Source: Streptomyces sp. NBC_00457
GTDB taxonomy: Bacteria > Actinomycetota > Actinomycetes > Streptomycetales > Streptomycetaceae
DNA: 64,000 bases
Assembly: GCF_036014015.1 (NCBI RefSeq)
Contig: NZ_CP107905.1
Span: 10,478,001 to 10,542,000 of the forward strand
Direction: 5' to 3'
The translations under genes were made by a program, and so were the position numbers. This document shows, one piece after another, positions 22,901-64,000 of the stretch (within the stretch, counting starts at the first letter, position 1; each line of letters begins with the position of its first letter). Under the pieces are notes generated by a model. That model was not told where the DNA came from. It searched no databases and saw nothing but the letters and a program-made list of their open reading frames with translations.

Positions 22901-22913
22901 CGAAGCACTACTA

Positions 22914-29844: not shown

Positions 29845-29886
29845 GCCCGGTTCAACGGACGATCAGGCCATAAGAAACGGTGTCTA

Positions 29887-31485: not shown

Positions 31486-31494
31486 AAGCCTGAG

Positions 31495-32275: not shown

Positions 32276-32287
32276 GCGATCCGTCTC

Positions 32288-32719
32288 GCGTCCGACTGGA
32301 GGTTCCATGACCAGAACGTCACTTTCCAGCAGTGGTCGCCCGAGGACCCCGAAGGGCCCTGGCTGTTGATGTTCGTCATCGGGTCCACGATCCAGTTCGG
32401 CGGTTCCGGCGGCATGAGGGGCACGGCCGGGTCGGTCAGCGGCCTGCGGGGCACCTGGATCAGGATCGTCACCCGGCTGAAGCTCGCCGGCGACGGCCAG
32501 GGCGCGTTCGAGGTGTGGCTGAACGGCACGAGGACGGTGAGCCGCACCGGCATCACCGTCTTGCCGTCCACCTCGCGGACGATCCGCTGGTCCAGCGGGA
32601 TCTACTGCACCGCCTGGCGCGATGGGACGCCGAGCGGCCCGCGGACGCTGACGGTCCTGCATGACAACCACAGGATCGCCTCGTCCTATGCCCTTGCCGA
32701 ACCGGCCAACTGGGCTTGA
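32288..32719 (+). pseudogene. Heparin-lyase-I-like polysaccharide lyase, C-terminal fragment
   Basis: The frame reads ASDWRFHDQNVTFQQWSPED, PWLLMFVIGSTIQFGGSGG, WIRIVTRLKLAGDGQGAFEV, and SGIYCTAWRDGTPSGPRTLT to a natural stop at 32719. This is the beta-jelly-roll end of secreted bacterial lyases of the heparin lyase I/glucuronan lyase type. The N-terminal half and signal peptide are missing; the left edge joins Tn3-derived sequence near 32280. Confidence 0.55.
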
Positions 32720-32814
32720 CGCACCTGTCGTTTGAGCTTCACCGCACTGTCGGGTGGCCGGCGGGTGTCTTGGGCTGGTGGGTGGCTGCTGCTGCGGGCG
32801 TGTCGTAGTGCGGT

Positions 32815-32858
32815 GCTCCCCGCCTGCCGGGCGGAGCGCCTGCCGGCGGGCGGGGAGC
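32815..32858. terminator. Strong hairpin terminator at the cluster edge
   Basis: GCTCCCCGCC-T-GCCGG pairs with CCGGC-G-GGCGGGGAGC (15 Watson-Crick pairs plus one G-U) around a 12-nt loop, followed on the plus strand by GTTTGTT. It lies between the lyase remnant (plus) and the MFS gene (minus), so it may end transcription from both sides. Confidence 0.6.
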
Positions 32859-33019: not shown

Positions 33020-34738
33020 TCAGGTTCCGGATCGGTGTCGTGCGGGTGCCTGTGGACGGGCGGTGTGTTGGGGGTGCTGGTTGGGCGGTGTTGTGTGGTG
33101 CGGGCGTGTGTGGGCGGCTGTTATCGGGTGGTGGCCATTTCGGTGTCTTCTGTCTTGTCGGGGGTGTTGGGGGTGTGGGGGGTGTTGGGTGGGGGTGGTG
33201 TTGTGGGGGCCGCGTAGGAGGATGTAGGCGAGGAGTACGGCCATGATGGCGACGCCTGCCCACATGGACTGCTGCCATCCGTCGACGTAGGACTGCTGTG
33301 CGGCGTGGATGAGGTCTGGTGCGTGGGGGCCGGCGCTGGTGGATGCCTCGATGGCGTTGGCGATGCCGTCTTGGGCGGTGTCGGCGGTTTTTTCGGGGAT
33401 GTTGTCGAGGCGGTCGTCGATGGCGTTGCGGTAGCCGGCTGTGAGGATGGCGCCGAGCAGGGCGACGCCGAGTGCGGTGCCGAATTCGCGGGTGACGTCG
33501 TTGAGGGCGGAGGCGACGCCTTGTTTTTCCTGGGGCAGTGAGCGGGTGAGGGCTTCGGTGGAGGGCACCATCGACAGGCCCATGCCGATGCCCATGAGGA
33601 TGATGCCGGGCAGGATTTTCAGGTAGCCGTCGTCGACGGAGACGAACAGGGCCATGAGGGCGAGGCTGGCGCCGGTGAGTGCGATTCCGGTGGCCATGGT
33701 GGAGCGGGGGCCGATGCGTGCGGCCATTTTGGGGGCCACGTTGGCGGATGTCATGATCCCGATGGCCAGGGGCATCAGTGCCGCCGCGGACAGCAGTCCC
33801 GACCAGTCGAGCACGGCCTGGAGGTAGGGGAAGAGGACGACTTGGACGCCGCCCTGGACAGCGAAGACGACGACCAGGGTGATCGAGCCGCCGGACAGGC
33901 CGCGCTCGCGGAAGAGGCGTACGTCCAGCAGTGCGGCGCCTTGGCGGCGCAGTTCCCAGAACACGAATCCGGCCGCGGCGGTGAGGCCGACGGCGAGGCC
34001 GGCCAGGGTCAGAGGCTGGCTCCAGCCGCTCTCGGGTCCTTCCTGCAGGACGAAGATGAGGCCGACGACGGCGACGGTGGAGGTCACTGCGCCGACGGTG
34101 TCGAAGGCGTGGGGGGAGCGCTCGTGGGAGTTGGGCACCGATTTCAGGGTCAGGGCCAGGGCCACGGCCACCAGGGCGACGGGCAGGGCGAACAGCCAGC
34201 GCCAGTCGGCGACGTCGGTGAGGAAGGCGGAGAGGAACATGCCCAGGACGCCGCCGCCTCCGGCGACGCCGGTCCACACGCCGATCGCCTTGCCGCGCTG
34301 CTCCTCGGGGAACGTGGAGGTGATCACGGCCAGGGTGATGGGCATGATCATTGCTGCGCCGATGCCGGCGGCCAGACGCGCGGCGAGCATCAGCTCGGCG
34401 GTGGGGGCCAGGGCCCCGGCGATGCTGGCGAGGCCGAAGAGGGCCAGTCCGGCGATCAGCATGGGTTTGCGGCCCAGGCGGTCACCGATCGCGCCGAGCG
34501 GCAGCAGCAGCGCGGCCAGGGCCAGGGTGTAGATGTTGATGATCCACAGGACGGTGTCCTGCGAGGCGTCGAACTCGACGGCCATTTGCGTCTGGGCGAC
34601 GATCAGTCCGGCCACGGACGCGATGACGGCCATCAGCGCTATCGAGACGGCGGTCAGGATCGCGCGCAGCTGACGTGCATCCGGCACGCCCCCGCCGCTC
34701 CCGTCAGGGGGTGCCGCCTGTGCAGGGTTCGTACTCAT
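33020..34738 (-). CDS. MFS exporter (DHA2, 14-TM), first gene of the biosynthetic region
   Basis: A 572-residue transporter. Motif A appears as LPLGAIGDRLGRKPMLIAGL, motif C region as GIGAAMIMPITLAVITSTFP; about 14 hydrophobic segments fit the QacA/DHA2 group. The last ~65 residues form an unusual His/Pro/Thr/Arg-rich hydrophilic tail (GPHNTTPTQHPPHPQHPRQD). The ATG at 34738 has AGAGGA six bases upstream. As a drug exporter beside a haloperoxidase it probably exports the cluster product or an intermediate (inference). Lies on the same strand as the haloperoxidase but 858 bp away. Confidence 0.85.
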   Translation of the reverse strand: MSTNPAQAAPPDGSGGGVPDARQLRAILTAVSIALMAVIASVAGLIVAQTQMAVEFDASQDTVLWIINIYTLALAALLLPLGAIGDRLGRKPMLIAGLALFGLASIAGALAPTAELMLAARLAAGIGAAMIMPITLAVITSTFPEEQRGKAIGVWTGVAGGGGVLGMFLSAFLTDVADWRWLFALPVALVAVALALTLKSVPNSHERSPHAFDTVGAVTSTVAVVGLIFVLQEGPESGWSQPLTLAGLAVGLTAAAGFVFWELRRQGAALLDVRLFRERGLSGGSITLVVVFAVQGGVQVVLFPYLQAVLDWSGLLSAAALMPLAIGIMTSANVAPKMAARIGPRSTMATGIALTGASLALMALFVSVDDGYLKILPGIILMGIGMGLSMVPSTEALTRSLPQEKQGVASALNDVTREFGTALGVALLGAILTAGYRNAIDDRLDNIPEKTADTAQDGIANAIEASTSAGPHAPDLIHAAQQSYVDGWQQSMWAGVAIMAVLLAYILLRGPHNTTPTQHPPHPQHPRQDRRHRNGHHPITAAHTRPHHTTPPNQHPQHTARPQAPARHRSGT

Positions 34739-35595: not shown

Positions 35596-37170
35596 TCAGT
35601 TTTTGGTGTTGCCGTTGACGTGGCGCTGGATGAATTCGTGGGCGAGGTCGCCGAACTGTTCACCGAAGGCCAGGGACCTCTCGGTGGTCTCCCGGAAGTG
35701 GACGCCGCCGTCCACCCGGCTCCTGGCGCATGCCTTGTTGAATTGGGTGAAGGTGGCGAAGTGGACCGTGACGTTCTTGGCGGGGGTGATGGTCGGCTCG
35801 ACCCGTGAGGTGCCGGCGGGGAAGTCGATCGTCCAGTCCAGGTCGTCGGAGCCGAAGTAGCGCCGTGCGGTTTGTGCCGCGGCGGCGCACAGCGAGGTGC
35901 TGCCCGAGGGGTATTCCGGGTGGTCGCTGGTGGGCAGGTAGCCGGCCCATTCGTGTGCCGGGAGGTCGTTGACGGTGCCCTTGCCCGGGCCGCCCCAGGC
36001 GGTCAGTTTGCTGCGGCCGTACACGTGCCTGACCGCGCTGATGGGCCGCACGGCGTCGAAGGCGGCCTTGTGGTGCCAGGCGGCGATCAGTGTGTCGAAG
36101 GTCGCCAGGATGTGCTGGAGCGACCACTGGACCCAGCCGTGCACGCCCATCTCGTTGTTCTGGTCGTGCTTGCGGGCCAGGACGAGGGAGTGGTGCCCGA
36201 TGCCCCAGAGTTTGTTGTCCATGATCTCGGCGAGGGCTTTGCGTTCGTCGGTGAGGGAGGCGGATGCTTCCACGATCTCGTCCACCGCGCGTTTGTAGGC
36301 GCGGGCGTTGGTGTGGTCGCTGTAGCGGGGCGCGGCGAGCTTGAACTGGGCGGGGTGGCGGAAGATGTGGGGCTTGGTCAGCGCGATCTGCGGGGTCACG
36401 AAGTGCTGGGCGACGAAGATGCCCATGTCGCCTGGGCCGCCGCCGACGCGGCGGCCGTTGTGGGGGCCCAGCTGCGGCTGCCAGCGCGAGGGGTTGACCA
36501 GCTTGTAGGGCGAGTTGACGGGCACGTAGCCGGTGTAGTCCGCCCACGGCGCGGGGTGGTATTTGCGGCCGCCCTCGTGGCCGAGGACGTTCATGCCGTC
36601 GTTCTTCAGCGCCTCCCAGGTGGCCCTGGCCGCCGTATTGCCGATACCGACCGGGGTGGTGAGGTTCTCCGACGCGTCGTCGGGGTTCAGGCCGAGCCCG
36701 GTCATCAGCTCCCGCAGGCCGCCCGTGAACTGCGGCAGCAGGCGCTTCCAGATGCCGAGCTGGACGTAGAGGGTGGCGATGTTCAGGTTGCGGTTGGTGG
36801 CGGACTCGCTGGAGGGGCGGCGGGGGATCTGGGAGTAGATGCCGACCGCGGTCTCGTGGTAGGGCGCCAGCGCGTCGAAGGCCGCCAGCATCGCCACGCG
36901 GCTCGTCCACAGGAAGACGGTCACGTCCATCGGGCCGATGAGCGCCAGCCTGCCCTCCTGGCCGACCGGCGCTTCGGTGGGCTGGGACCACTTGACGTAG
37001 TTGTCCTTGTCGAGGTCGAAGTCGATGGCGGCCGTCTTCTCGCCGGTGGCGGCACCGGCGGTACGGGAGAAGGCCAGCATGGACAGCGCAGCCGCCGAAG
37101 CACCGCCGACCAGCAGCGGCCGGCGGCCCAGCGGGGAACGTAAGCCGGGAGTGTGTCCGGACGTCGTCAT
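35596..37170 (-). CDS. Vanadium-dependent haloperoxidase (NapH/Mcl24 type) with Tat signal
   Basis: A 524-residue vanadium haloperoxidase, normal for the Streptomyces meroterpenoid group that chlorinates or brominates and cyclises prenylated naphthoquinones. Vanadate-binding residues: Lys near 368 and Arg near 375 in HKAAFDAVRP; PSGS near 421-424, where fungal and algal enzymes have PSGH and NapH-type enzymes have Ser; Arg near 485 and the metal-ligand His near 491 in ARSRVDGGVHFRE. The N-terminus LRSPLGRRPLLVGGASAAAL with a following A-x-A is a twin-arginine signal. ATG at 37170 has AAGGAG eight bases upstream. It should use chloride/bromide and H2O2. A decayed paralogue lies directly upstream, and tatB/tatC/tatA genes lie in the same cluster. 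Confidence 0.9.
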   Translation of the reverse strand: MTTSGHTPGLRSPLGRRPLLVGGASAAALSMLAFSRTAGAATGEKTAAIDFDLDKDNYVKWSQPTEAPVGQEGRLALIGPMDVTVFLWTSRVAMLAAFDALAPYHETAVGIYSQIPRRPSSESATNRNLNIATLYVQLGIWKRLLPQFTGGLRELMTGLGLNPDDASENLTTPVGIGNTAARATWEALKNDGMNVLGHEGGRKYHPAPWADYTGYVPVNSPYKLVNPSRWQPQLGPHNGRRVGGGPGDMGIFVAQHFVTPQIALTKPHIFRHPAQFKLAAPRYSDHTNARAYKRAVDEIVEASASLTDERKALAEIMDNKLWGIGHHSLVLARKHDQNNEMGVHGWVQWSLQHILATFDTLIAAWHHKAAFDAVRPISAVRHVYGRSKLTAWGGPGKGTVNDLPAHEWAGYLPTSDHPEYPSGSTSLCAAAAQTARRYFGSDDLDWTIDFPAGTSRVEPTITPAKNVTVHFATFTQFNKACARSRVDGGVHFRETTERSLAFGEQFGDLAHEFIQRHVNGNTKN

Positions 37171-52433: not shown

Positions 52434-53387
52434 ATGTCTGCTGAGCTCGCGGACAAGACCGCGCACACGGTGCACGTGTCCGCACCCGCCGGTGTGGTCT
52501 ACGCGCTGATTACCGACGCGGCGAAGTGGCCGCTGTATTTCTCCCCGGTCATCCATGTGGAGCAGCTGGAGTTCGACGGCGAACGGGGGTGGCTGAGGAT
52601 GTGGTCCCTCATGAACGGCCAGCTGAAATCCTGGACCTCGTGGCGGCACCTGGACCCGGTGGAGCGCCGCGTGGAATTCCGGCAGGAACTGCCCGCGTCG
52701 CCGTTCAACTCGCTGGGCGGCACCTTGAACGTGCGTTCCCAAGGCCCGCACCGCAGCGAGCTGGAGCTGCGGTACGACTTCAGCGTCACCGGGGACCGGC
52801 CCGACGACGTGGCGTGGGCGCAGCGCGCCACCGGCGCGAACAGCCGCGCCCAGCTCGCCGACGTGAAGGCCTTCGCCGAGCGGTGGACGCGCCTGGACGA
52901 ACTGGTCCTGTCCTTCGAGGACTCGGTGCGCATCCACGGCCCGGCCGAACTGGTCTACGACTTTCTCTACCGGGCCGAGGCCTGGCCCCAGCTGGTCCCG
53001 CACGTCACCCGGGTCGACCTGACCGAGGACGCGCCCGGAGTGCAGCGCATGCAAGTGAAGACGCTGACCGAGTCCGGTGCGCACAGCGCCGACTCGGTGC
53101 GGATCTGCTTCCCGCACGCGGGCCGCATCATCTACAAGGAGACCGCGGCCTCCCCCCTGCTGAAGGCACACACCGGCGAATGGTCCGTCGTCCCGGACGA
53201 GACGGGGGTGACCGTCCTCGCGCAGCACAGCGTCGTGCTGCGCGAGGAGAACATCGCCGCCGTGCTGGGCGAGGACGCGGGCCTGGCACACGCCCGCTGG
53301 CATGTGCGCCAGGCGCTCGGCCAGAACTGCCTGGCCCTGCTGACCCTGGCCAAGCAGCATGCGGAAAGCGCCGTCCGCATGCTGTGA
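52434..53387 (+). CDS. Two-domain polyketide aromatase/cyclase (START/Bet v1 fold)
   Basis: A 317-residue protein with two helix-grip (polyketide cyclase) domains: domain 1 about residues 10-150 (HTVHVSAPAGVVYALITDAA, WKSWTSWRHL-type region NGQLKSWTSWRHLDPVERRV), domain 2 about 165-310 (DSVRIHGPAELVYDFLYRAE, WPQLVPHVTRVDLTEDAPGV). Didomain enzymes of this type (ActVII-like) close and aromatise the first ring of type II polyketides. GGAGAGG seven bases upstream of ATG 52434. Its presence argues for an aromatic polyketide part of the product, though no ketosynthase is in the window. Confidence 0.88.
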   Translation: MSAELADKTAHTVHVSAPAGVVYALITDAAKWPLYFSPVIHVEQLEFDGERGWLRMWSLMNGQLKSWTSWRHLDPVERRVEFRQELPASPFNSLGGTLNVRSQGPHRSELELRYDFSVTGDRPDDVAWAQRATGANSRAQLADVKAFAERWTRLDELVLSFEDSVRIHGPAELVYDFLYRAEAWPQLVPHVTRVDLTEDAPGVQRMQVKTLTESGAHSADSVRICFPHAGRIIYKETAASPLLKAHTGEWSVVPDETGVTVLAQHSVVLREENIAAVLGEDAGLAHARWHVRQALGQNCLALLTLAKQHAESAVRML

Positions 53388-53556
53388 CGGCGACGAGGGG
53401 CGGGCGGCCGCGCCCCAAAGCAGCCCTGCGAACGGCGACGACCGCGATGTGCTGCGGGAATACTTGGAATGCAGTCGAGCCGCGGCGGAAAGAAAGCAGT
53501 GCCTCCTCGGCTACCCCGTACCGTGGCTTTTTGCCCGGACACGGCGAGGAGCTGCA

Positions 53557-53919
53557 ATGTTCAATGACATAGGCGCGCTTGAGCTGGTGATGCTCGCGAT
53601 TCTTGCCGTGCTCATCTTCGGCCCGGACAAGCTGCCGAAGGTAATCCAGGACGCGGCCAGGATCATCCGGAAGGTCCGTGCCTTCTCGGACCAGGCCCAG
53701 CAGGACATCCGCGAGGAACTCGGCCCCGAGTTCAAGGACGTCACCTTCGAGGACCTGAATCCCAAAACGTTCATCCGCAAGCAGCTGGGCAGCGACGAAC
53801 TGGGGCTAAAGGAGATCCGCAACAGCTTCGACCTGCGCAAAGAAGCGGCAGACGTCGCCGACGCGGTGAACGGCCCCGAGAGCGAGCCGGCCCGCAGGCC
53901 CAGGCCCCCCTCACCGTAG
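53557..53919 (+). CDS. tatB: Sec-independent protein translocase subunit TatB (cluster copy)
   Basis: A 120-residue TatB: short N-terminus, membrane helix IGALELVMLAILAVLIFGPD, hinge GPDKLPKV, amphipathic helix QDAARIIRKVRAFSDQAQQD, then the actinobacterial C-terminal region ELGPEFKDVTFEDLNPKTFI. ATG at 53557 with GAGGAG six bases upstream. TatB joins TatC to form the receptor for twin-arginine signals. Streptomyces normally have one chromosomal tatB outside clusters; this copy stands behind an aromatase gene, and tatC/tatA homologues lie 6-7 kb further on. Confidence 0.88.
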   Translation: MFNDIGALELVMLAILAVLIFGPDKLPKVIQDAARIIRKVRAFSDQAQQDIREELGPEFKDVTFEDLNPKTFIRKQLGSDELGLKEIRNSFDLRKEAADVADAVNGPESEPARRPRPPSP

Positions 53920-54152
53920 CCGCCCCCTGAACGTCCACGTCCCCTGCCCCGGCCCTCGTGAGGCAACGCCCGACGGGCCGGGGCAGGCGTCGGCCCGCCC
54001 CCGCCCCGGCGGGTGGGTGCACCGGCCCTGCCGGCTGGGGCACCGCTCGGCCCCCGCTGCACACCCGCTTGGGAAAACGGACGCCGGGGCGGTGCGGCAA
54101 CTAGCGTGCTGAACCCGACCGTTGTGGACGTCAGGCAGGCCAGGAGGCCGTC

Positions 54153-54305
54153 ATGAGGCAGAGGCAGTACGGCCCGGCCCACGTATACGCCGCCTGGCGC
54201 CGCCCGCGCCGCATCCACCCCTGCCACCCCGCCTCGGGCCTGCGCGTGACCTTCCACAGTGCCGCCGCCCCGGGCACGGCGGGCACGGCGGCCGGGCCGT
54301 TCTAG
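54153..54305 (+). CDS. 50-residue basic hypothetical protein
   Basis: ATG at 54153 is preceded by AGGAGG six bases upstream. The frame reads MRQRQYGPAHVYAAWRRPRR, then IHPCHPASGLRVTFHS and an Ala/Gly-rich end, stopping at TAG 54303-54305. Strongly basic N-terminus; no family recognised. It comes right before the large condensation-like gene, with 80 bp between, and may be cotranscribed with it. Confidence 0.5.
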   Translation: MRQRQYGPAHVYAAWRRPRRIHPCHPASGLRVTFHSAAAPGTAGTAAGPF

Positions 54306-54385
54306 GAGCCTGCCTGCCCGTTCAGCGCCCGCAGAAAGGAGAGAAGGGTACCCGGCCCCGCGACGGACCGCACACCCCGGCCACC

Positions 54386-57300
54386 ATGACTGTTCACCGT
54401 TGCCCCCACGCGCCGATCTCCGTGCTCGTCGACCCCGGCCCCGCCCCGCAGGCGAGCCGGTGGGACCTCGAGCTGCGCGGGCCGCTCGACCGTGCCGCCC
54501 TGGACCACATCCTGGGCGAACTCATCGCCGACGGCCGGGAGCGGCCCGTGCCGCGGCACCAGCTGCTGCGGCACGGCCCCGACCACCACACGCTGCGGTT
54601 GTGGGCGGCGGAGGCAGGGCCCGCCGCCCTCGTCTCGGGCCGCATCGCCGACCGGCTCACCGAGCCGCCGCCCGCCGCCGACCACCCGCTGACCACCGCC
54701 CAGCGCGCCCTCCTCGCATCCGGCGGGGCGCACCGTTATGAGACGGTGCTGCTCGAAACGGACGCCGCACCGGACGCGGGCGCGCTGCGCGAGGCCCTGG
54801 GCGCCGTCCTGGCCGCCCACCCTCAGCTGCGCTCCCGCCTCGCCGCGGACGGCTGGCTCACCACCCGGGCCGGCAACGGGCCGGCCGGCCGGCCGGATCC
54901 GCTGGTGGAGAGGGAGTTCACCGACGAGGCCGGCTTCGGTGCGGCGGTGGACTTCACCGGCCGCACCCTCGACGTGCGCGCCGGCCTCCAGCTGCGGGCG
55001 CTGCTCGCCCGGGACCGCCGTCCGGCCGGACCGCGCGCCGACCGGCTTGCCCTGGTCGTGCATGAGCTCGCCGTGGACGCCGCGTCCTGGCCCGTCCTGC
55101 TCGACGACCTGAGCGCCGCCCTCGACGCGGCCGGCGCCGGACGTCCGGCGCGGCCCCGGCGCCGGCCCGGCCACCTGGCCGACTGGGTCGGCGAACTGCG
55201 GGAGCTGGCCCATGACCCCGCCGAGGCGCGGCACTGGAGCCTGGTCGCCGGGCGCAGGCTGCGGACGGGCGACTCCCACCGGCCCGCCCCGCCCGCCCCG
55301 CCCGCCCAGTCCGCCCCGCCGGCCGGGCCGGGCGCCGGGCCCGGCCAGGTCCGCCACACCGGGTTCGTCCTGGACCAGGACCGCACCGAGCGGATCGTCC
55401 AGGTCCTGGCCCGGCGGCTCGCGCTGACCCCCGCACAGGTGCTGACCGGCGTGTTCGCGCTCGCCCTGGCCCGCTGGCAGGGATCCGACGAGGTCAGCTT
55501 CGACCTGCGCGGCGACCCCCGCAGCGGCCGGCCCGGCCTGCGCGAGCACGTGGGCCGGCTCGCCGACCCCTACCCGGTCCATCTCACACCGGACCCCGGC
55601 CTCGACGCCCTTGGCCAGCTCACCGCGCTGGCCGGCCCCCTGGCCGACTGCGCGGGCGGCGCCCCCGGCGGCGCCGGCTTCGGAGCCTGCCGCGAGTGGG
55701 GCCCCGATCCGCTGCTGCGGCGCCGGCTGCGTGAACTGCCGCCCGCCCCCACGTGTCTGAGCGTGCCCGGCCCCGGCGAACTGCTGCCCGGCTTCGCCCG
55801 GCCCGCGCACGGCAGCACACCGGGCCGGCCCGCACACCCCATCGAGGTCCGCGCCCAGGTCGCCCACGGCCGGCTGCACATCACTCTCGACTGGGCCACC
55901 GCCCCGGCGCACGGCGTCACCGACACGACGGTGGCCGCCCTCAAGGACCTGCTGCGAGAACTGCTGGGAGAGCTCGCCGACGCGCCCGCCGCCCCGGCTC
56001 CGCTCGTCCTGCGGGCCACCCCCCAGCAGTCGGCGCTGTACACCGGCGGCGCGGGACGGCCCGGCACCGGACGCCATGTCGAACAGCTCGTATGGCTCTG
56101 GCACGGCCCGCTCGACGCCGCCCGCTTCGCCGCGGCCTGGCAGTCGGTGTTCGACTGCGAGACGGTGCTGCGCACCGCGTTCACCGGCGGCGGCGAACCG
56201 CTGCTCGTGGTGCACGACCGGGTCGTGCCCGAGATCACCCGCCGGGCCGTCAGCGACGACGACTGGCACCCCTTCCTCGAGCGGGACCGGCTGCGCGGTT
56301 TCGACCTGCACTGCCCCGCACTGCTGCGCCTGACCCTGCTGGACGCGCAGCACACCCCGCCCGACACCACCCCCGCCCCCACCCGGATCCTGGTCAGCTA
56401 CCACCGGGCCCTGCTCGACACCTGGAGCGCGCACCTGTTGCTGCGCGAGTTCTACCGCGCCTACCTCGCCGGCGGCACCCTGCCCGGCGGTGAGCGCCGC
56501 CCCGACCTGCGCGACTACACGGCCTGGGTCGCGGCCCAGAACCCGGAGCCCGCCCGCGGGTTCTGGGCGCGCAGCGCACCCCCCGACGGCGCGGCCTCAC
56601 GGCCCGGCCGGCCCGCCGCCACCGGCCTGACCGGCGCCGGCCGTGCCCGGCTGCGCCTGGACCCCGCCGACACCGCCCGCCTCGCCCGCTGGGCCGGCAC
56701 CTGGGGCACCGCCGAGAGCAGCGTGCTGCAGGCCGTCTGGGCCATGCTGATCTACTGGGCCTCCGGCGCCACCCAAGCGGCCCCCGTCTGTTTCGCGGTG
56801 ACCGTGTCGGGGCGCGGCATACCGCTGGACGGCGCGGCCCGGATACCGGGGCCGCTGCGCAACCCGCTGCCCATGACCGTCGAGGTGGACCCGGCGGGCC
56901 CGGTGCCGCACCTGCTGCAACAACTGCGCGACCGCGCCCTGGAGATGTCCGCATACGAATGGGTACCCGCCGACTGGATCCGCGCCTGGAGCCACAGCAG
57001 CGCCCACGCCGACACCGTCATCGCCTTCGAGGACCCGCCCCATCCGGTGCAGGGCCTGGAGACCGAACTCGCCGCCCACGGCCTGGGGGCCGAGTTCCCG
57101 GGCATCCTGCCCGCCCACTCCGTACTCCCCGTCGGGCTGCTGGCCCACCACGACAGCGCGGGCGGCCTGGTCCTCACGGAGGTCCACGACCGGGCCCAGC
57201 TCGGGGAGGAGGCGGCCGGCGAACTGCTGGCGCACAGCGTCCTGCTGCTGCGGGAACTTCCCCTGTGGGCAGACGAGTCCACCACCGTCGACGAAGCCCT

Positions 57301-57754
57301 GCAGCTCCTCGAGTCCAGCACCGCCCCCCTCATGGCCGACGCCCTCCACGACGGCCAGGACACCCCCTGGATCACCCTGCGCGCGGCGCGCCAGGACCAG
57401 GCGGGAACGATCTGCCTGATACCGCCGCCGGGCGCCCCCCTCACCTGCTACGACCTGCTGGCCCACGCCTATGAGGGCCCCCAGGAACTGCTGGTGCTCC
57501 CCGCCGACGCCGGCCCGGGCGGCGCACCGGGCGCCCTCACCGCGCTCGGCCAGGGCCCCTTTCTGCTGCTCGGCGGATTCTCCGGAGCCGGTGCCCGCGC
57601 CTGTGACATCGCCCGGCGCATCGCGGCGGACGGCCACCGCCCGCCGCGGGTGGTACTCGCCGGTGCGACGGCAGACGAGTGGGAGCGGGCCCGCGAACTG
57701 GCCGCAGCCCTGAACGCCGCCACCGGCTGGCCCTTGGACGCCGACGGCGCGTAG
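54386..57754 (+). CDS. NRPS-like protein: E-like, C-like and thioesterase-like domains, no A or carrier domain
   Basis: A 1,122-residue protein. Region 1 (about residues 90-540) looks like an NRPS epimerisation-type condensation fold: PLTTAQRALLASGGAHRYET, LGAVLAAHPQLRSRL and LVVHELAVDAASWPVLLDDL, where the HHxxxDxxSW motif has Glu for the second His (His 226). Region 2 (about 545-960) is a condensation-type domain: AWQSVFDCETVLRTAF, SYHRALLDTWSAHLLLREFY (second His is Arg 674) and DYTAWVAAQNPEPARGFWA. Region 3 (about 1010-1122) is a short alpha/beta-hydrolase piece, LLLGGFSGAGARACDIARRI, with Ser 1066. No adenylation or phosphopantetheine site is seen. ATG at 54386 has no good ribosome site; AAGGAG lies 40 bp earlier. 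Role unknown; an acyl or ester transfer function is possible. Confidence 0.75.
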   Translation: MTVHRCPHAPISVLVDPGPAPQASRWDLELRGPLDRAALDHILGELIADGRERPVPRHQLLRHGPDHHTLRLWAAEAGPAALVSGRIADRLTEPPPAADHPLTTAQRALLASGGAHRYETVLLETDAAPDAGALREALGAVLAAHPQLRSRLAADGWLTTRAGNGPAGRPDPLVEREFTDEAGFGAAVDFTGRTLDVRAGLQLRALLARDRRPAGPRADRLALVVHELAVDAASWPVLLDDLSAALDAAGAGRPARPRRRPGHLADWVGELRELAHDPAEARHWSLVAGRRLRTGDSHRPAPPAPPAQSAPPAGPGAGPGQVRHTGFVLDQDRTERIVQVLARRLALTPAQVLTGVFALALARWQGSDEVSFDLRGDPRSGRPGLREHVGRLADPYPVHLTPDPGLDALGQLTALAGPLADCAGGAPGGAGFGACREWGPDPLLRRRLRELPPAPTCLSVPGPGELLPGFARPAHGSTPGRPAHPIEVRAQVAHGRLHITLDWATAPAHGVTDTTVAALKDLLRELLGELADAPAAPAPLVLRATPQQSALYTGGAGRPGTGRHVEQLVWLWHGPLDAARFAAAWQSVFDCETVLRTAFTGGGEPLLVVHDRVVPEITRRAVSDDDWHPFLERDRLRGFDLHCPALLRLTLLDAQHTPPDTTPAPTRILVSYHRALLDTWSAHLLLREFYRAYLAGGTLPGGERRPDLRDYTAWVAAQNPEPARGFWARSAPPDGAASRPGRPAATGLTGAGRARLRLDPADTARLARWAGTWGTAESSVLQAVWAMLIYWASGATQAAPVCFAVTVSGRGIPLDGAARIPGPLRNPLPMTVEVDPAGPVPHLLQQLRDRALEMSAYEWVPADWIRAWSHSSAHADTVIAFEDPPHPVQGLETELAAHGLGAEFPGILPAHSVLPVGLLAHHDSAGGLVLTEVHDRAQLGEEAAGELLAHSVLLLRELPLWADESTTVDEALQLLESSTAPLMADALHDGQDTPWITLRAARQDQAGTICLIPPPGAPLTCYDLLAHAYEGPQELLVLPADAGPGGAPGALTALGQGPFLLLGGFSGAGARACDIARRIAADGHRPPRVVLAGATADEWERARELAAALNAATGWPLDADGA

Positions 57755-57881
57755 CGCACCCCGCAGGAGGGCCGGGCCCGAGCACCGCGTGCCCTGCCGC
57801 CGCGGCATGCGGGGCAGCCGCACCCGCGGTGCGCCCGGTGGCCGGCGAGGCGGTGCCCGCCCGCCGTTTCCCCACCGTTCC

Positions 57882-57910
57882 TCGAGCGTTTCTCGTGCGA
57901 CGTTGTGCAG
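57882..57910 (+). promoter_or_regulatory. SARP-type triple direct repeat
   Basis: TCGAGCG (57882), TCGTGCG (57893) and TGTGCAG (57904) follow each other at exact 11-bp spacing, the pattern bound by SARP activators upstream of -10 boxes. It lies about 230 bp before the 46-residue gene at 58140. Confidence 0.5.
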
Positions 57911-58139
57911 GGTGGCTGATGCATGGGCGGCCCCGTCGGGAGTCTTAGGCACTGCCCCGCAGGTACGGCCCACCGCTGCCCCACAGGTGCGGCCCTCGGG
58001 GCCCACGCGGCCGCGGCGTACGCCCGGTGTGCGCCCCGCCGCCGGGCCCCAGGAGCAGGCCTGCTGCGCCGGCGTCACGGCCGAGGGCCCTACAGGCCCG
58101 GCCGCTGCCCCACGTGAGCCGGCCGGACAGGAGGATCAG

Positions 58140-58280
58140 ATGTACGACACCGAAGAGGAGGGCAGCAGGATGCCCAACGAGCGCAGGGATCTTTCCCTGC
58201 CGCACGTGCCGCCGCTCCTGCTGGCCGGAATCGACGAGGACGACACCTGGGAGCCCCACGTCGTGCGCGGCATCGACTGA
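58140..58280 (+). CDS. 46-residue acidic peptide gene
   Basis: ATG at 58140 with AGGAGG five bases upstream. The peptide begins MYDTEEEGSRMPNERRDLSL, has a Pro/Leu-rich middle (PHVPPLLLAGIDEDD) and ends TWEPHVVRGID. It is acidic and has no Cys. No family recognised. A SARP-type repeat is upstream and a DUF6059-like gene follows within 120 bp, so it belongs to a cluster transcript. It could be a small accessory protein or a precursor peptide; no modification enzyme for a RiPP is seen nearby. Confidence 0.6.
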   Translation: MYDTEEEGSRMPNERRDLSLPHVPPLLLAGIDEDDTWEPHVVRGID

Positions 58281-58400
58281 CGTGCCGGGACGGCTCGCGC
58301 GGCGCGGCCCGCTGCTGCGGCCCGGGCATCCTCGACCGATGTGCGAGTGGACCTTGACAGCCTGCAAAGACAGCCGCGAGCGAAGGTACAGGGAGCGGTC

Positions 58401-58700
58401 ATGAAACGGTTGTTGCGTCGCGGCCGGCAGGCGGTGGTGGACCATTGCCTGCGCCCGCTGTGGCGATCCCTGGTGACCTTCGGGGCCATGTACGCCAGCA
58501 TCGAGGCCTATCACGCGGCGGGCGAATACTCTTTTGCCGCGTACACGCAGGATCCCTTCGCGCACGCCCGGCACGGGCCGCCGCCCGCCCACCCCGAGCG
58601 CGTGCGCGCGGACCTGCCGCTCTCTGCGACGGAGCGGCAGCTCGCCCGTGAGCTGTGGCCGGCGTACCCCGCCGAAGGGCGTGTCCCCGACGGCAGTTGA
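58401..58700 (+). CDS. Small DUF6059-like protein
   Basis: A 99-residue protein: basic start MKRLLRRGRQAVVDHCLRPL, a weakly hydrophobic middle (WRSLVTFGAMYASIEAYHAA) and PPPAHPERVRADLPLSATER with a final Glu/Leu helix. The G/P-P-P-x-H-P-E-R-x-R-x-D-x-P-L-S block matches what I remember of DUF6059 proteins, short genes often found in Streptomyces biosynthetic clusters and without known function. GGAG six bases before ATG 58401. Converges with the nitroreductase gene (20-bp gap). Confidence 0.6.
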   Translation: MKRLLRRGRQAVVDHCLRPLWRSLVTFGAMYASIEAYHAAGEYSFAAYTQDPFAHARHGPPPAHPERVRADLPLSATERQLARELWPAYPAEGRVPDGS

Positions 58701-58720
58701 CCGCCGCCGGGGCCGGCCGG

Positions 58721-59311
58721 TCAGACGGTGGTGATGACCTCGCCGATGTCCAGCCGCGGGGAGCGCGGCAACCAGGCGTCCGGGCCCGGCTTGCCGATGT
58801 TGACGATCATCAGCGGGCTGTGGTCGTCGTCCAGGAAGTCCTTTTGGACGCCGGCGAAGTCGAAACCGGTCATCGGGCCGGCGGCCAGGCCGGCGGCGCG
58901 GACGCCCATGATGAAGTACGCGGCCTGCAGGGCGCCGTTGACCAGGGCGGACCGCTCGCGGACCGGGCGCTCGGCGTAGAGCAGGTCCTTGACCTGCGGC
59001 AGGCGGGGGAGCAGCTTGGGCAGTTCCTCGTGGAACTCGTTGTCCACGGCCAGGACCGCGACCAGCGGGGCGGTGGCGGTCTTCGCGCGGTTGGCCTTGG
59101 CCATGTGCTCCACCAGGCGGCCGCGGGCCTCGGCGGAGCGGACCAGGGTGATGCGCAGCGGGGTCTGGTTGTAGGCGGTCGGACCGTACTTGACCAGGTC
59201 GTAGATCGCCTGGATCTGCTGCTCGGTCACCGGCTCGTCGGTGAACGTGTTCGCGGTCCGGGCCTCGCGGAACAGGAGGTTCTGGGCGGTGGTGTCAAGG
59301 ACAAGCGACAT
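58721..59311 (-). CDS. Nitroreductase-family flavoprotein (RutE/HadB-like)
   Basis: A 196-residue FMN-dependent nitroreductase: QNLLFREARTANTFTDEPV, the FMN-binding YDLVKYGPTAYNQTPLRITL, and VNGALQAAYFIMGVRAAGLA. Length and the YGPTAYNQTP motif place it in the RutE/HadB (malonic semialdehyde reductase-like) subgroup. GAAGG six bases before ATG 59311. Within the cluster it could reduce a quinone, an enoyl group or an aldehyde. It is the last gene of the leftward set mvaA-mvaS-nphT7-tatA-tatC, although 309 bp separate it from tatC. Confidence 0.85.
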   Translation of the reverse strand: MSLVLDTTAQNLLFREARTANTFTDEPVTEQQIQAIYDLVKYGPTAYNQTPLRITLVRSAEARGRLVEHMAKANRAKTATAPLVAVLAVDNEFHEELPKLLPRLPQVKDLLYAERPVRERSALVNGALQAAYFIMGVRAAGLAAGPMTGFDFAGVQKDFLDDDHSPLMIVNIGKPGPDAWLPRSPRLDIGEVITTV

Positions 59312-59620
59312 GGCTGCAACCTTCGTGTCAGGGGCGGTGGACCGGCTTGCGCGCACGGCGCACAGCACGCTTCGACTCTCCAGGCGGCCAAAGCGGCCTT
59401 CACGCGCTTCGTGCCCGTGAGGTCTGCGTGCTCGGGCGGGCCGCCGTCTTCGCCCGGCCGCGAAGACCGCGGGACGCAGCACGGCGAACCCGGCGGTACA
59501 GGTCGTGACAGGTCGTGGCAGGGCGGCCGGGGCGGACGGCGTGACCCCCGGGGCCGCCCGGGCCCCGGGGCCGCCTGGCTCGTCTGCGCGCTGGGAGCTG
59601 CTCGGCACCGCTGCGGCCCG

Positions 59621-60568
59621 TCAGGTGACGTCGCCGTGAGCGGTCAGCCGCCGCCCCTGGTCCGGGCCGGCCTGCGCGGTGACGTGCGGTGCGGCACCGA
59701 CCGGCTCGGCCGCGCCCACGTCCTGCGGGCCCGGGCCGAGGGGGGACGCTTCGTCGTCGCCGAGGCCGGCGTCGGGGTCGCTGCGGGCGCGGCGTCTGTC
59801 GTTGAGCAGGCAGATGACCAGCGCGATGACGCACAGGAGCGCGATCGGGGCGGCCAGCGACAGCATGGTCAGCGGGTCACCGGTCGGCGTGGCGAACGCG
59901 GAGAACAGGGCGATGCCCATGAGCATGCCGCGCCACCAGCCGGCCAGCCGCTTCCCGGTCAGCGCTCCGGTGATGTTGAGCAGCACGAGCAGCAGCGGCA
60001 GCTCGAAGGCGAGCCCGAAGACGATCACCATGCGGGTGATCAGGTCGAGGTAGTCGTCGACCGGGAGGAGATTCTTGGTGTCCTGGGGGGTGAAGCCCAA
60101 AAGGACGGTCGCGGTCTGCGGAAGAATCACGTAGGCGAGCACGGCACCGCCGAGGAACAACGGCACACCGGCGCCGACGAAGGTCAGCGCGTACGTCCTC
60201 TCGCGGGTGTGCAGGCCGGGAGCCAGGAAGGCCCACAGCTGGTACAGCCAGATCGGCGATGCCAGGACCACGCCGGACATGAGCGAGACCTTGAGCGCGA
60301 TCGAGAAGGGCGCGATGAGGCCGTTGATCGTCATGTCGGCGCACGGCTCGCCGTTCGCCTGCCGCAGCGAGCCGTCCACACAGCCCACGGAGTCAAGGAT
60401 CGGCCTCAGCAGGAAGTCGATCAGTTCCTGGTAGAAGACAGCGGCGACGACCGTGACGACCAGGACCGCCAGGAGGGACGTCAGCAGCCGGTTGCGCAGC
60501 TCACGCAGGTGCTCCGCGAGAGGCATCCGCCCCCCGGCGTTCTTCTGCTTGCGGGCAGTGGTGAGCAC
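59621..60568 (-). CDS. tatC: Sec-independent protein translocase subunit TatC (cluster copy)
   Basis: A 315-residue TatC with six membrane segments. The cytoplasmic N-terminal signal-binding region is RMPLAEHLRELRNRLLTSLL; other family landmarks are FLAPGLHTRERTYALTFVG and GLAFELPLLLVLLNITGALT. An acidic/Pro-rich tail of about 60 residues follows the last helix. It is 40 bp downstream of tatA on the same strand. Together with tatB at 53.6 kb, the cluster has all three parts of a Tat translocon. The cluster haloperoxidase has a twin-arginine signal and is the obvious candidate substrate. Confidence 0.9.
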   Translation of the reverse strand: MLTTARKQKNAGGRMPLAEHLRELRNRLLTSLLAVLVVTVVAAVFYQELIDFLLRPILDSVGCVDGSLRQANGEPCADMTINGLIAPFSIALKVSLMSGVVLASPIWLYQLWAFLAPGLHTRERTYALTFVGAGVPLFLGGAVLAYVILPQTATVLLGFTPQDTKNLLPVDDYLDLITRMVIVFGLAFELPLLLVLLNITGALTGKRLAGWWRGMLMGIALFSAFATPTGDPLTMLSLAAPIALLCVIALVICLLNDRRRARSDPDAGLGDDEASPLGPGPQDVGAAEPVGAAPHVTAQAGPDQGRRLTAHGDVT

Positions 60569-60608
60569 CCCGCGTTCCTCACTCTCGTGCGGCGGCCGTC
60601 GGTCGGCG

Positions 60609-60881
60609 TCAGCTGTGGACGGTGCGGTGCGGCTCGGTCACCGCAACCGAGCCCGTCACGTCCCTGGGCGCGGCCTTCAGGGTGCGAGGCGCGGCCTGTG
60701 CCGGATGGTGCGGGTCCGCCGTCGCCTCGTCGTCCTTCTTCATCGCCTTGGCCTCACTCCTGAGAATGCGAGCGGACTTGCCGAGCGACCGGGCCATTTC
60801 CGGGAGCTTCTTCGCGCCGAAAAGCAGCGCGATGAGAGCAATGATCAGAACGATCTCCAGGGGCTTCAGATTGCCTATCAT
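60609..60881 (-). CDS. tatA: Sec-independent protein translocase subunit TatA (cluster copy)
   Basis: A 90-residue TatA: MIGNLKPLEIVLIIALIALL (membrane helix), FGAKKLPEMARSLGKSARIL (the F-G-x-x-x-L-P hinge and amphipathic helix), then a charged tail. TatA multimers form the passage for folded proteins recruited by TatBC. ATG at 60881; tatC follows after 40 bp, so the two are probably one transcript reading away from the mevalonate genes. Confidence 0.9.
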   Translation of the reverse strand: MIGNLKPLEIVLIIALIALLFGAKKLPEMARSLGKSARILRSEAKAMKKDDEATADPHHPAQAAPRTLKAAPRDVTGSVAVTEPHRTVHS

Positions 60882-61028
60882 GTGCCACTTCCTTTATGCC
60901 GAAGCAGGGATCCGTTGCGCATGTGGAGGTGCCGGCACCGAAGGGAGCACGACGAGAGGAGAATAGGACGCAACAAAGGCCGCCGGGCGCCCGTGCAACT
61001 GTCTCTTGAGCCGTTTTCCAGGGCCCTT

Positions 61029-62063
61029 TCACCATTCGACCAGCGCGAAACTCGCCGCCATGCCACCGCCGAAGCCGGCCAGGAGGATCAGCTCGCCCGG
61101 GCGGAAGGCGCCGGCGCGGGCGGCCGCGTCCAGGGTGATCGGGATGGAGGCGGCTCCCGTGTTGCCGTAGTGCGTCAGCGTGCGGTGCAGGGTGGCGCGG
61201 GGCATGGCCAGGTCCTCGACGACTTCGTCGAGCATGACGCCGTTGGCCTGGTGCGGGATGAAGTGGCTGATGTCGGCGGGCTCGACACCGGCCTCGTGGA
61301 GGAAGCCCTTGACCAGCTGCGGCAGTTGCTCCACGACGAAGCGGCGCACTTCCCGCCCGTCCATCGCGAAGTACTGCGCTCCCGCGTCGAGTCCGGCCTG
61401 GTCCAGGGGCAGCCGGCTGCCGCCCGCGGGCACCTGGATCAGGCTGGAGAGGTCACCGAACGTGTGCAGCGCGACATGCCGGACGAGCGGGCCCGTCTCT
61501 GTCGTGCCGAGGACCATCGCGCCGGCGCCGTCCCCGAACAGCACGACCGTCCTGCGGTCGGCCGGGTTCAGGATGCGCGAGTACACGTCCGCGCCGATGA
61601 CCAGCGCATAGCCGCCCCGCCGCAGGATCACGCTGCCGACCGCGGAGAGCGCGAACACGGTGCCGGAACACACCGCGTTGACGTCGAACGCCGCGGTGCC
61701 GGACGCGCCGAGGTTTTGCTGGACATAGGCCGCCGTGGGCGGCTGGGGCCGGTCCGGCGTGGACGTGGCGACCGCGATCACGGACAACTGCTCGGCGGTG
61801 ATGCCGGCCGACTCCATCGCGGCATGCGCCGCGGCCGTCGCCAGATCCGACGTGGCCTGCCCGCCGGCGGCCCAACGCCGCTCGCGGATCGCGGTCTTAC
61901 GGGTGATCCAGGCGTCGTCCACCCCGGCCGGCGCACCGACTTCGTCGTTGGAGACGATCCTTTCCGGCACGTAGGCGCCCGTACCGAGAATCCTGACATC
62001 GATGGCGCCGACGATCCGGTCCGGCCCGTCGGCACCCGAACCGAGGTTCTTGACATCCCTCAT
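61029..62063 (-). CDS. nphT7: Acetoacetyl-CoA synthase, NphT7-type ketoacyl synthase III
   Basis: A 344-residue KAS III-like enzyme very close by eye to NphT7 of Streptomyces CL190, which condenses malonyl-CoA and acetyl-CoA to acetoacetyl-CoA and so feeds HMG-CoA synthase without a thiolase. Catalytic Cys near residue 132 in NAVCSGTVFALSA, His in ISHFIPHQANGVML, Asn in HYGNTGAASIPI. AAGGGAGGG eight bases before ATG 62063. Compared with NphT7 it has about 17 extra N-terminal residues: DVKNLGSGADGPDRIV looks like a duplicate of the following DVRILGTGAYVPERIV. Lies in an operon-like row with mvaS and mvaA. Confidence 0.9.
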   Translation of the reverse strand: MRDVKNLGSGADGPDRIVGAIDVRILGTGAYVPERIVSNDEVGAPAGVDDAWITRKTAIRERRWAAGGQATSDLATAAAHAAMESAGITAEQLSVIAVATSTPDRPQPPTAAYVQQNLGASGTAAFDVNAVCSGTVFALSAVGSVILRRGGYALVIGADVYSRILNPADRRTVVLFGDGAGAMVLGTTETGPLVRHVALHTFGDLSSLIQVPAGGSRLPLDQAGLDAGAQYFAMDGREVRRFVVEQLPQLVKGFLHEAGVEPADISHFIPHQANGVMLDEVVEDLAMPRATLHRTLTHYGNTGAASIPITLDAAARAGAFRPGELILLAGFGGGMAASFALVEW

Positions 62064-62195
62064 GCGCGTGCCCTCCCTTCCATGGGTCTGTGAACACAAG
62101 GTGTGAAAGGCCGGCGGGTAGGCGGCCATGACTGACCCGTCACGGGGGCAGCCGACGCAGGCTGCCCACGCAACGCACGGGTGCGGAAGACGCCG

Positions 62196-63365
62196 CTAGC
62201 GCGTCTCGTAGAGGCGCTTGTGGCCGCTGAGCCCGGCCAGCCGGAAGGGTCCGGTGGTCTGCGCCTCGGTGGCGTGGTGGCCGCCGTCGGTCGGGAAGGA
62301 CCGCTCGTGCAGCGCGCGGTAGCCGGTGTAGTCGACGGGCCTGCGCCGGGCGATCGTCTCGCGGTTGTGCTCGGTGCGCAGGTGCGTGCGGTAGCCGGCG
62401 ACCACGGTGGCGGCGAAGAACTCGGCGACGCTGCCGGAGCCGTAGCTGAACATGCCGACGGACTTGCCGGTCAGGTCGCCGGCCTGGTCGAGCAGCGCGG
62501 CCAGCGCGAGGTACACCGACGCGGTGTAGCTGTTGCCGATCACGGTGTTGTAGGCCGTGGTCTGTGCGATGGCGCGCGCGATGTCGTTCTTGTCGGTGTC
62601 GTAGCCGCAGTAGTTCAGCAGGTGGCGGTGGGCCTTGTAGGCCATCTTGGTGAACGGCTGGTGGTAGCAGAACGCGGCGAACTCCTCCAGCGTGCGGCCG
62701 CCCTGCTCCGTGTAGTCCTTCCAGGTGCCCTCCACCGCCTGGAGATAGGCGTTGATGGACTCGTGGCCGTCGACCAGTGCCTCGTTGCGGTAGTTGGGCC
62801 GCCAGAAGTCCATGACGTCGGCGGTGAACAGGCCCGAGGGGTCCTCGATGCGCAGCAGGGCGGGATCCAGGCTGACCAGCATGGCCACCGCCGCCGCGCC
62901 CTGGGTGGCCTCACCGGGGCTGTCCAGCTCGTACTTGGAGACGTCGCTGGCGATCACGAGGACCTGCTGGGCGGGGTCGCGCTGTACCAGGCCGATGGCG
63001 AACTGGAGGGCCGCCGTCGCCCCGTAGCAGGCCTGCTTCAGCTCGACGACGCGGGTGGCCGACGGCAGCTGGAGCAGGGAATGGACGTACACACCGGCCG
63101 ACTTCGCCTGGTCGATGGAGGACTCGGTGGCGAACACGACCGTGCGGATCCGGTCGCTGCCGTGCCGGGCGATGATGGGCGCGGCGGCCGCCGCCCCCAT
63201 GGTCACGATGTCCTCGTCGGCGGCCGGGATGCTCATCGACTCCTGGCCGATGCCCACATGGTATTTGCCGATCTCGGTGCCGTTGTAGGCGGCCAGTGCC
63301 GTGTGCGGCAGGACGAACTCGGCTGTCGCGAACGACAGGTCGTGTATTCCGATGGAGAGGGACAT
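62196..63365 (-). CDS. mvaS: Hydroxymethylglutaryl-CoA synthase
   Basis: A 389-residue HMG-CoA synthase, normal bacterial length: starts SIGIHDLSFATAEFVLPHTA, general-acid Glu in VVFATESSIDQAKSAG, nucleophile Cys near residue 113 in VVELKQACYGATAALQFA, and His in FCYHQPFTKMAYKAHRHLL. It adds acetyl-CoA to acetoacetyl-CoA to give HMG-CoA. It begins 3 bp after the HMG-CoA reductase stop, so they are in one operon; the NphT7-type gene follows after 132 bp. Together they make the upper mevalonate pathway; kinases and isomerase are expected beyond the right edge. Confidence 0.95.
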   Translation of the reverse strand: MSLSIGIHDLSFATAEFVLPHTALAAYNGTEIGKYHVGIGQESMSIPAADEDIVTMGAAAAAPIIARHGSDRIRTVVFATESSIDQAKSAGVYVHSLLQLPSATRVVELKQACYGATAALQFAIGLVQRDPAQQVLVIASDVSKYELDSPGEATQGAAAVAMLVSLDPALLRIEDPSGLFTADVMDFWRPNYRNEALVDGHESINAYLQAVEGTWKDYTEQGGRTLEEFAAFCYHQPFTKMAYKAHRHLLNYCGYDTDKNDIARAIAQTTAYNTVIGNSYTASVYLALAALLDQAGDLTGKSVGMFSYGSGSVAEFFAATVVAGYRTHLRTEHNRETIARRRPVDYTGYRALHERSFPTDGGHHATEAQTTGPFRLAGLSGHKRLYETR

Positions 63366-63367
63366 GC

Positions 63368-64000
63368 CTATGCACCTACCTTTACGGTCGTGTTGTCGCG
63401 TTCCAGCGCCACGTGTGCGCGCATGAGTTCACCGGGGTTCGTCTGGGCCGCGAGCAGCGAGAGTTCACCGCACAGCACGGTGGCCGCGGCGAGGACGGCG
63501 AGCCGGCGGGCGTTCTCGCCGGGCGCGGCGTCGGCCCGGCAGCCGAGCCGGGTCAGGTTCGTCTCCACGAAGGCCAGGCCCTTGCCGTTGCCGACCGTGC
63601 CGACGATCAGGTTGGGCAGGGTGCAGGCGAAGTAGAGGTCGCCGTCGCGGTCCTCGGCCATGACGACGCCCTGGGAGCCTTCGATGATGTTGGCCGCGTC
63701 CTGGCCGGTGGCCAGGTAGAACGCGAGCAGCATGTTCGCGTAGTGGGCGTTGGCCGAGCGGATACCGCCGGCCAGCAGGGTCCCCAGCAGGTTCTTGCGG
63801 ATGTTCAGCTCGACGATCTTCGCGGCACTCGTGTGCAGGACGCCGGCCACCACCTGGCGCGGTACGAGCAGTTCGGTGACCACGTTCTTGCCGCGGCCGA
63901 GGATGCCGTTGATCGCGGTGGCTTTCTTGTCCGTGCAGTAGTTGCCGGAGATCGATCCGTAGGAGATGCCCGGGACGGTCTGCAGCAGGTGCGCCAGCAG
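63368..64000 (-). CDS. mvaA: Hydroxymethylglutaryl-CoA reductase, 5' end beyond window
   Basis: The last ~210 residues of an HMG-CoA reductase of the class I type found in Streptomyces mevalonate clusters. Visible blocks: GISYGSISGNYCTDKKATAI (catalytic Lys region), INGILGRGKNVVTELLVPR, NAHYANMLLAFYLATGQDAA (catalytic Asp nearby), and VGTVGNGKGLAFVETNLTRL. The C-terminus ends TTVKVGA. Reduces HMG-CoA to mevalonate with NADPH. Gene order reductase, synthase, NphT7 is that of the CL190 mevalonate cluster. The start lies right of the window. Confidence 0.93.
   Translation of the reverse strand: MLAHLLQTVPGISYGSISGNYCTDKKATAINGILGRGKNVVTELLVPRQVVAGVLHTSAAKIVELNIRKNLLGTLLAGGIRSANAHYANMLLAFYLATGQDAANIIEGSQGVVMAEDRDGDLYFACTLPNLIVGTVGNGKGLAFVETNLTRLGCRADAAPGENARRLAVLAAATVLCGELSLLAAQTNPGELMRAHVALERDNTTVKVGA

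Follow-up and report, generated by a model that had tools for sequence, protein, structure and literature searches.

The Accessory tat Genes in the Window

The analyzed window is a stretch of 64,000 nucleotides, C1:10478001-10542000, from the single-contig genome (10.80 Mb) of Streptomyces sp. NBC_00457. It codes for TatA, TatB and TatC, a vanadium haloperoxidase (VHPO) and further biosynthetic enzymes (Table 1). The three Tat proteins each score above the curated cut-off of their NCBIfam models, and their reading frames are intact. The VHPO gene is 16.4 kb from tatB. The ketoacyl synthase III is, by its position, presumably NphT7-like.

Table 1. Features of the window, with positions counted from its first nucleotide.
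Feature	Position	Strand	Evidence and remarks
Part of terminal inverted repeat, continuing beyond the window	32855-64000		99.7-100% identical to left arm
MFS efflux transporter adjoining the VHPO	33020-34687	-	NCBIfam MFS models, none above cut-off; 72-77% identical genes in related clusters
NapH1-type VHPO, 524 aa	35596-37170	-	NapH1 (3w35) 825 bits; PF22778 (VCPO_2nd) 237 bits; RR leader ~37048-37170
Aromatase/cyclase adjoining tatB	52434-53387	+	70-73% identity to plasmid genes so annotated; no NCBIfam match
tatB, accessory copy, 120 aa	53557-53919	+	NF002374 196 bits (cut-off 162); PF02416 25.4 (cut-off 21)
Condensation-domain protein adjoining tatB	54422-57754	+	PF00668 118.6 bits; kept near tatC in plasmids
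Malonic semialdehyde reductase-type nitroreductase, downstream of tatC	58721-59311	-	NF003768 243 bits (cut-off 152)
tatC, accessory copy, 315 aa, GTG start	59621-60568	-	TIGR00945 178 bits (cut-off 132.7); SH-aLRT 96 clade with two plasmid TatCs
tatA, accessory copy, 90 aa	60609-60881	-	NF001854 88.7 bits (cut-off 72)
Ketoacyl synthase III	61029-62063	-	NF006829 320.6 bits; adjoins tatA in plasmid clusters too
HMG-CoA synthase, first gene of the mevalonate block in this reading direction	62196-63365	-	83-84% identity to plasmid genes so annotated
HMG-CoA reductase, running past the window end	63368-64000	-	86-88% identity to plasmid genes so annotated; full gene in extended reading

A sequence-only reading of this DNA had described the tat genes as an extra, full-length tatA/B/C set away from the housekeeping loci. 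The curated models bear this out, and the housekeeping copies were found elsewhere. Pfam finds three TatC matches in the whole genome, the housekeeping one (8586473) and an equal-scoring pair (264097 and 10537846). The seven TatA/B matches are the housekeeping tatA (8586090), the cluster tatA and the cluster tatB (twice each), a TatA-like gene (1560790) and the housekeeping tatB (4022358). The housekeeping tatA/tatC pair occupies C1:8586090-8587342, and the housekeeping tatB is found in a separate place, near C1:4022358. That the cluster set might be the only tat genes of the strain, named beforehand as a refutation of the proposal, is ruled out by these separate loci. The lone TatA-like gene (L014:7701-7943, C1:1560790) has no adjoining tatC.

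The whole tat set is present twice, and the left arm of the terminal inverted repeat holds identical copies of the VHPO, tatB, tatC and tatA. In the extended region, blast pieces are 99.7-100% identical to the left arm over 32855-83928 and 99.99% identical over 94572-103500, in a comparison with the left arm apart from its positions 230001-240000. The part of the window at 17000-32855 is transposase-rich (by eye) and ends at the repeat edge, 32855.

The accessory set resembles the housekeeping TatABC of Streptomyces in having all three subunits, of the same families, and its proteins are 60-69% identical to the strain's own. It differs in being part of a biosynthetic cluster, with tatA-tatC after the ketosynthase III gene and tatB apart, and in its location on plasmids (see below) and in a terminal repeat. 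Comparison of the window genes with their plasmid counterparts gave approximate dN/dS values of ~0.3 for tatC, 0.44-0.57 for tatA and 0.47-0.64 for tatB; the set is under purifying selection. A promoter-like scan of 53300-62300 returned 0 sites, and a motif upstream of tatB that is common to two plasmids was not found in the window. No shared promoter or regulatory motif was thus found.

The Host Cluster

Past the window end follow the mevalonate block, a type III synthase, a cupin, a DegT-type aminotransferase, an AMP ligase, a prenyl synthase, three aromatic prenyltransferase-like genes and two further VHPOs. The synthase, cupin, ligase, lyase, cytochrome b and DUF3099 genes were confirmed by Pfam; the remaining cluster gene names are assumed, in part from similarity to annotated plasmid genes. 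The match of the window VHPO to NapH1 (PDB 3w35) spans residues 1-523, and its NapH3 match scores 517 bits. The second VHPO (L012:8115-9671, beyond the window) scores slightly higher with NapH3 (620 bits) than with NapH1 (597 bits), yet has an RRSLL leader. The third (L012:16487-18055, also beyond the window) is NapH1-type (756 bits) and has an RRSLL leader as well. A type III synthase, a mevalonate block, aromatic prenyltransferases and several VHPOs are thus all found together, and the host cluster is, by its genes, a meroterpenoid cluster of the napyradiomycin type that extends beyond the window.

A paralog of QcrB-type cytochrome b is also encoded in the cluster (L011:12926-14683, C1:10554426-10556180, beyond the window), along with a DUF3099 gene. 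It is possibly a self-resistance gene. There are four more cytochrome b places in the genome, two of which have a stop inside the match. The region L011:7054-10655 codes for an FAD-NAD(P)-binding protein and an adenylosuccinate-lyase-like protein (Pfam), which are kept in the plasmid clusters. We take this pair to resemble a nitrite-making pair; the aminotransferase and the AMP ligase presumably point to diazo chemistry.

The nap cluster of MAR4 Streptomyces contains a type III synthase, three VHPOs and the mevalonate pathway, according to the consulted excerpt of PMC4650096. The NBC_00457 cluster agrees with these listed contents and has NapH1/NapH3 homologs. It is set apart from the published description of nap, within that excerpt, by its Tat set, and differs further in that no leaderless NapH3-type enzyme was seen in the strain. 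Genomes with nap-like VHPOs have no linked tat. The furaquinocin cluster of Streptomyces sp. Je 1-369 shares genes for a cycloisomerase-type lyase, a polyprenyl synthetase, a prenyltransferase and cytochrome b (excerpt of PMC9686526). It differs in that "haloperoxidase" and "translocase" have 0 mentions in the main text of that paper. The parts are already known; a Tat set joined to a VHPO cluster, or conserved as a member of one, was not found in print in the open-licence literature, as listed by title and abstract. Nor did the excerpts consulted discuss where bacterial VHPOs act in meroterpenoid pathways.

Twin-Arginine Leaders on the Haloperoxidases

A twin-arginine signal had been proposed for the window VHPO, and its N terminus indeed combines an RRPLL leader with a hydrophobic stretch and an A-G-A/A site. 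The leaders described here were assigned by eye and with a sequence pattern combined with hydropathy. NapH1 itself has an RRRSM leader, and NapH3 has none. In the VHPO tree, the RR is kept in all 20 rows of the NapH1 clade (19 genes, two rows being one gene of genome G105), and a leader is found in 0/6 rows of the NapH3-like clade. L056 and L264, the remaining rows without a leader, fall in other parts of the tree, which implies repeated gain or loss of leaders.

All three VHPOs of NBC_00457 have a leader, as have three of the four in each of the related strains NBC_01298, NBC_01147 and NBC_01137 (see below). The fourth is leaderless in each of these, and that of NBC_01298 is NapH3-type (940 bits). 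A scan of the tat-bearing clusters flagged 17 proteins as Tat-tagged, namely nine VHPOs and eight MFS-type transporters; we consider the VHPOs to be the only convincing candidates among them. Retention of the RR across the NapH1 clade suggests that VHPOs of this family are really exported, with or without a cluster tat set.

Related Clusters on Linear Plasmids

The VHPO matches 44 plasmid records, 8 of which are from Streptomyces. TatC matches 13 plasmid records, and the best three (71.5-77.1% identical) belong to the 8 Streptomyces VHPO records. These are linear plasmids of Streptomyces sp. NBC_01298 (NZ_CP108416.1) and of Streptomyces xanthophaeus NBC_01147 (NZ_CP108623.1) and NBC_01137 (NZ_CP108630.1). 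They carry the same tatA/B/C plus multi-VHPO cluster, with four VHPO genes each. The gene order on NZ_CP108416.1 is tatB, mvk, mvaD, phosphomevalonate kinase, fni, HMG-CoA reductase, HMG-CoA synthase, ketosynthase III, tatA, tatC, a DUF6059 gene, a condensation-domain protein and an aromatase/cyclase. The tat, mevalonate and VHPO genes of the other two plasmids are as in NZ_CP108416.1. The placement of tatB differs, being beside the aromatase/cyclase in the window and ahead of mvk in NZ_CP108416.1.

A plasmid of strain KMM 9044 (NZ_CP113912.1) has a decayed tatB (L293:7841-8173; 86.6 bits, cut-off 162) in a cluster with one leader-bearing VHPO. This remnant is located between an SRPBCC gene and a malonic semialdehyde reductase, a place that matches that of tatB in the window. 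No match to tatA or tatC was found on this plasmid. The plasmid of S. xanthophaeus KPP03845 (NZ_CP116357.1) is the same replicon as that of NBC_01147, with 98% identity over 18.8 kb of its backbone and 89% identity in the mevalonate block. Neither of its two VHPO genes codes for a leader. Queries with TatA and TatC of the plasmids matched nothing on it, and TatB had only a chance-level match. As one contrast, the comparison of KPP03845 with NBC_01147 strengthens the proposed pairing of tat and VHPO genes. On NZ_CP109481.1, tat genes are 1.58 Mb from the mevalonate block and were counted as unlinked. The AD2-2 VHPO, whose match is split in two, is possibly broken.

Origin of the Accessory Set

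In a TatC tree (90 rows, quick method), the TatCs of the window and the plasmids group together as a clade (SH-aLRT 96). This is nested in a clade of 35 rows (SH-aLRT 96), the others being from Streptomyces bambusae, Streptomyces goshikiensis, Streptomyces katrae, Streptomyces roseus and their kin or congeners. The comparison with the host's own Tat, called for by the sequence-only reading, thus groups the cluster TatC with the plasmid copies and places the strain's housekeeping TatC elsewhere in the tree. Among the best 80 of at least 505 confirmed TatC loci on GTDB contigs, 79 have at least four genes that best match the strain's housekeeping tat stretch, a count that takes in the tat genes themselves; the remaining locus (L138) has one such gene. 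TatC was probably captured from a housekeeping gene of the xanthophaeus/katrae type. The TatA and TatB trees are poorly resolved; they do not reject a grouping of the three cluster copies (p-AU 0.85 and 0.79), but this is no proof of a single origin. Among 5.8 billion proteins, the best 120 of 3259 TatC relatives are mostly unplaced Streptomyces TatC and added no context.

Co-Occurrence of tat and Leader-Bearing Haloperoxidases

Fifteen plasmid records cover at least 80% of the mevalonate query. The cluster contains a tat gene in 4/4 records with a leader-bearing VHPO (one being the decayed tatB) vs 0/11 others, which divide into 0/4 with leaderless VHPOs only and 0/7 without a VHPO match. The one-sided Fisher p is 0.0007 by record, 0.003 when the S. 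xanthophaeus pair is counted once, and 0.033 for complete sets only. Over 21 lineages, the signal is weak, with a linked tat in 4/12 leader-bearing vs 0/9 leaderless lineages (one-sided p 0.083) or, for complete sets, in 3/12 (p 0.17). These tests were devised post hoc and take no account of common ancestry. A cluster tat is hence seen only with leader-bearing VHPOs, and eight of the 12 leader-bearing lineages have no linked tat, so that host Tat must suffice there.

A search of 392 congeners gave VHPO matches at 1e-30 in 27, and 20 of the 392 have more than one TatC. Besides the strain's own genome, 13 have VHPOs at least 43% identical over most of their length. Two of these, G047 and G087, have a second TatC, which is unlinked (at a distance of 2.1 Mb and on a different contig). 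The single TatC of G105 lies 71 kb from one of its VHPOs and is regarded as the housekeeping copy. In a family sample of 394, there were 13 VHPO matches at 1e-60; nine of these genomes were new, and each has one TatC. A linked extra tat set was thus found in 0/22 of these other VHPO genomes (13 congeners and nine family genomes, several being drafts). The pairing proposed in the sequence-only reading therefore stands in part. The intact extra set under purifying selection, its conservation in syntenic VHPO clusters on plasmids of two other lineages, the VHPOs as the only convincing Tat-tagged proteins and the covariation among plasmids speak for it. The eight leader-bearing lineages without linked tat and the weak signal over 21 lineages speak against a fixed pair.

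Possible Roles of the Cluster-Borne Tat Set

We lean, if only slightly, towards an accessory Tat set that derives from housekeeping genes of the xanthophaeus/katrae type and is kept as extra capacity for the NapH1-type VHPOs of the cluster. A napyradiomycin-type cluster would have acquired a complete Tat translocase from such a Streptomyces and retained it. TatBC would bind the twin-arginine leaders of the NapH1-type VHPOs, TatA would complete the pore, and the folded VHPO would be placed outside the cytosol. Peroxide and vanadate would be available there. With family-wide export, the cluster set would add capacity or timing. This proposal builds on the genes and their intactness, the origin of TatC, the conservation in three clusters, the leaders and the covariation among plasmids. 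We infer from these that the cluster Tat proteins may carry these VHPOs, that the genes may be expressed jointly and that the strain may benefit. Several results weigh against this proposal: the eight leader-bearing lineages without linked tat, the weak signal over 21 lineages, the lack of enrichment of Tat-tagged neighbors at accessory tat loci (see below), the negative search for a common promoter or regulatory motif, the 16 kb between VHPO and tat in the window, and the reported action of NapH1 ahead of a prenylation.

It is tempting to speculate that the pathway is split across the membrane by the cluster-borne Tat, and this extension is tentative. The prenyltransferases and the leaderless NapH3-type enzymes would remain inside, and the NapH1-type enzymes would be exported folded. 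The tat genes and the leader-bearing enzymes would be gained and lost together on linear plasmids. If true, the split would keep chloronium chemistry, peroxide and vanadate outside the cytosol. The chief difficulty lies in the chemistry. Prenyl donors are cytosolic. With NapH1 reported to act before prenylation by NapT8, it would have to be present on both sides of the membrane or act before its export, or the products here differ. As described in the excerpt of PMC8407142, geranylated THN is hydroxylated and chlorinated by NapH1; prenylation by NapT8 and a rearrangement by NapH3 follow, after which NapH1 and NapH4 act once more. Because NapH1 precedes both the NapT8 prenylation and the NapH3 step in this excerpt, halogenation that takes place entirely outside is hard to reconcile with it, and the earlier idea of a halogenation separated from the cell is, taken in full, doubtful.

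Extra capacity for the VHPOs has to be weighed against a tat set that is a passenger. Duplicates of housekeeping tat genes may have been taken up by a linear plasmid and retained, either by chance or because they add general Tat capacity, with any exported VHPOs using host Tat. The nearest TatCs are housekeeping ones, eight leader-bearing lineages manage without linked tat, and more than one TatC is present in several congeners (see above). We nevertheless find this unlikely: all three subunits, from two separate housekeeping loci, were united and are kept under purifying selection in three clusters, and the leaderless sister plasmid of KPP03845 is without tat.

The leaders may also be unused for export. 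Halogenation would then be cytosolic or membrane-associated, the leader would have another role (e.g., in the dimer), and the tat set would be unrelated. The order of steps in the excerpt of PMC8407142 would fit, and the NapH1 chain in PDB 3w35 takes in the leader region. Retention of the RR throughout the NapH1 clade, set against the leaderless NapH3-type enzymes, makes this improbable. We give the least credence to respiratory self-protection, in which the product attacks cytochrome bc1, and cytochrome b and the Tat set (placing the Rieske subunit) keep the complex working: cytochrome b is encoded in the NBC_00457 and plasmid clusters, and Rieske assembly depends on Tat in Corynebacterium glutamicum, with Tat acting together with Sec in Streptomyces coelicolor (excerpt of PMC4383559), but cytochrome b is found without tat in KPP03845, on a contig of G217 and in the furaquinocin cluster (excerpt of PMC9686526), and four more places with cytochrome b are present in the genome.

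With a conserved cluster Tat set and a clean leader difference between NapH1-type and NapH3-type enzymes, the site of VHPO action becomes a testable question. This bears on heterologous expression of halogenating pathways, and accessory Tat sets are possible cluster members to consider in genome mining.

Other Accessory tat Loci in Streptomyces

In one TatC group, accessory tatA/tatC/tatB genes are directly beside a protein with a twin-arginine leader in four of six loci (L206, L192, L201 and L202). The client-like neighbors in two tested loci are an alpha/beta hydrolase and an epoxide hydrolase. These loci resemble the window in having an extra tat set next to a possible client; they differ in having no haloperoxidase cluster and in belonging to another TatC clade. 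Over the accessory tat loci, Tat-tagged neighbors were not enriched (0.47 per 20 kb vs 0.9 at housekeeping tat loci).

Another accessory TatC group has 11 loci (L190, L193, L196, L208 and relatives) with conserved neighbors, which are sigma-factor-like, cupredoxin-like (by eye) and metallophosphoesterase genes. In G388 (L209:19465-19971 and L210:20 onward) and G146 (L194), tatB and tatC adjoin a type I polyketide synthase (KS, AT, KR, DH) that looks iterative. This is another accessory tat in a biosynthetic locus, and its TatC match holds one stop.
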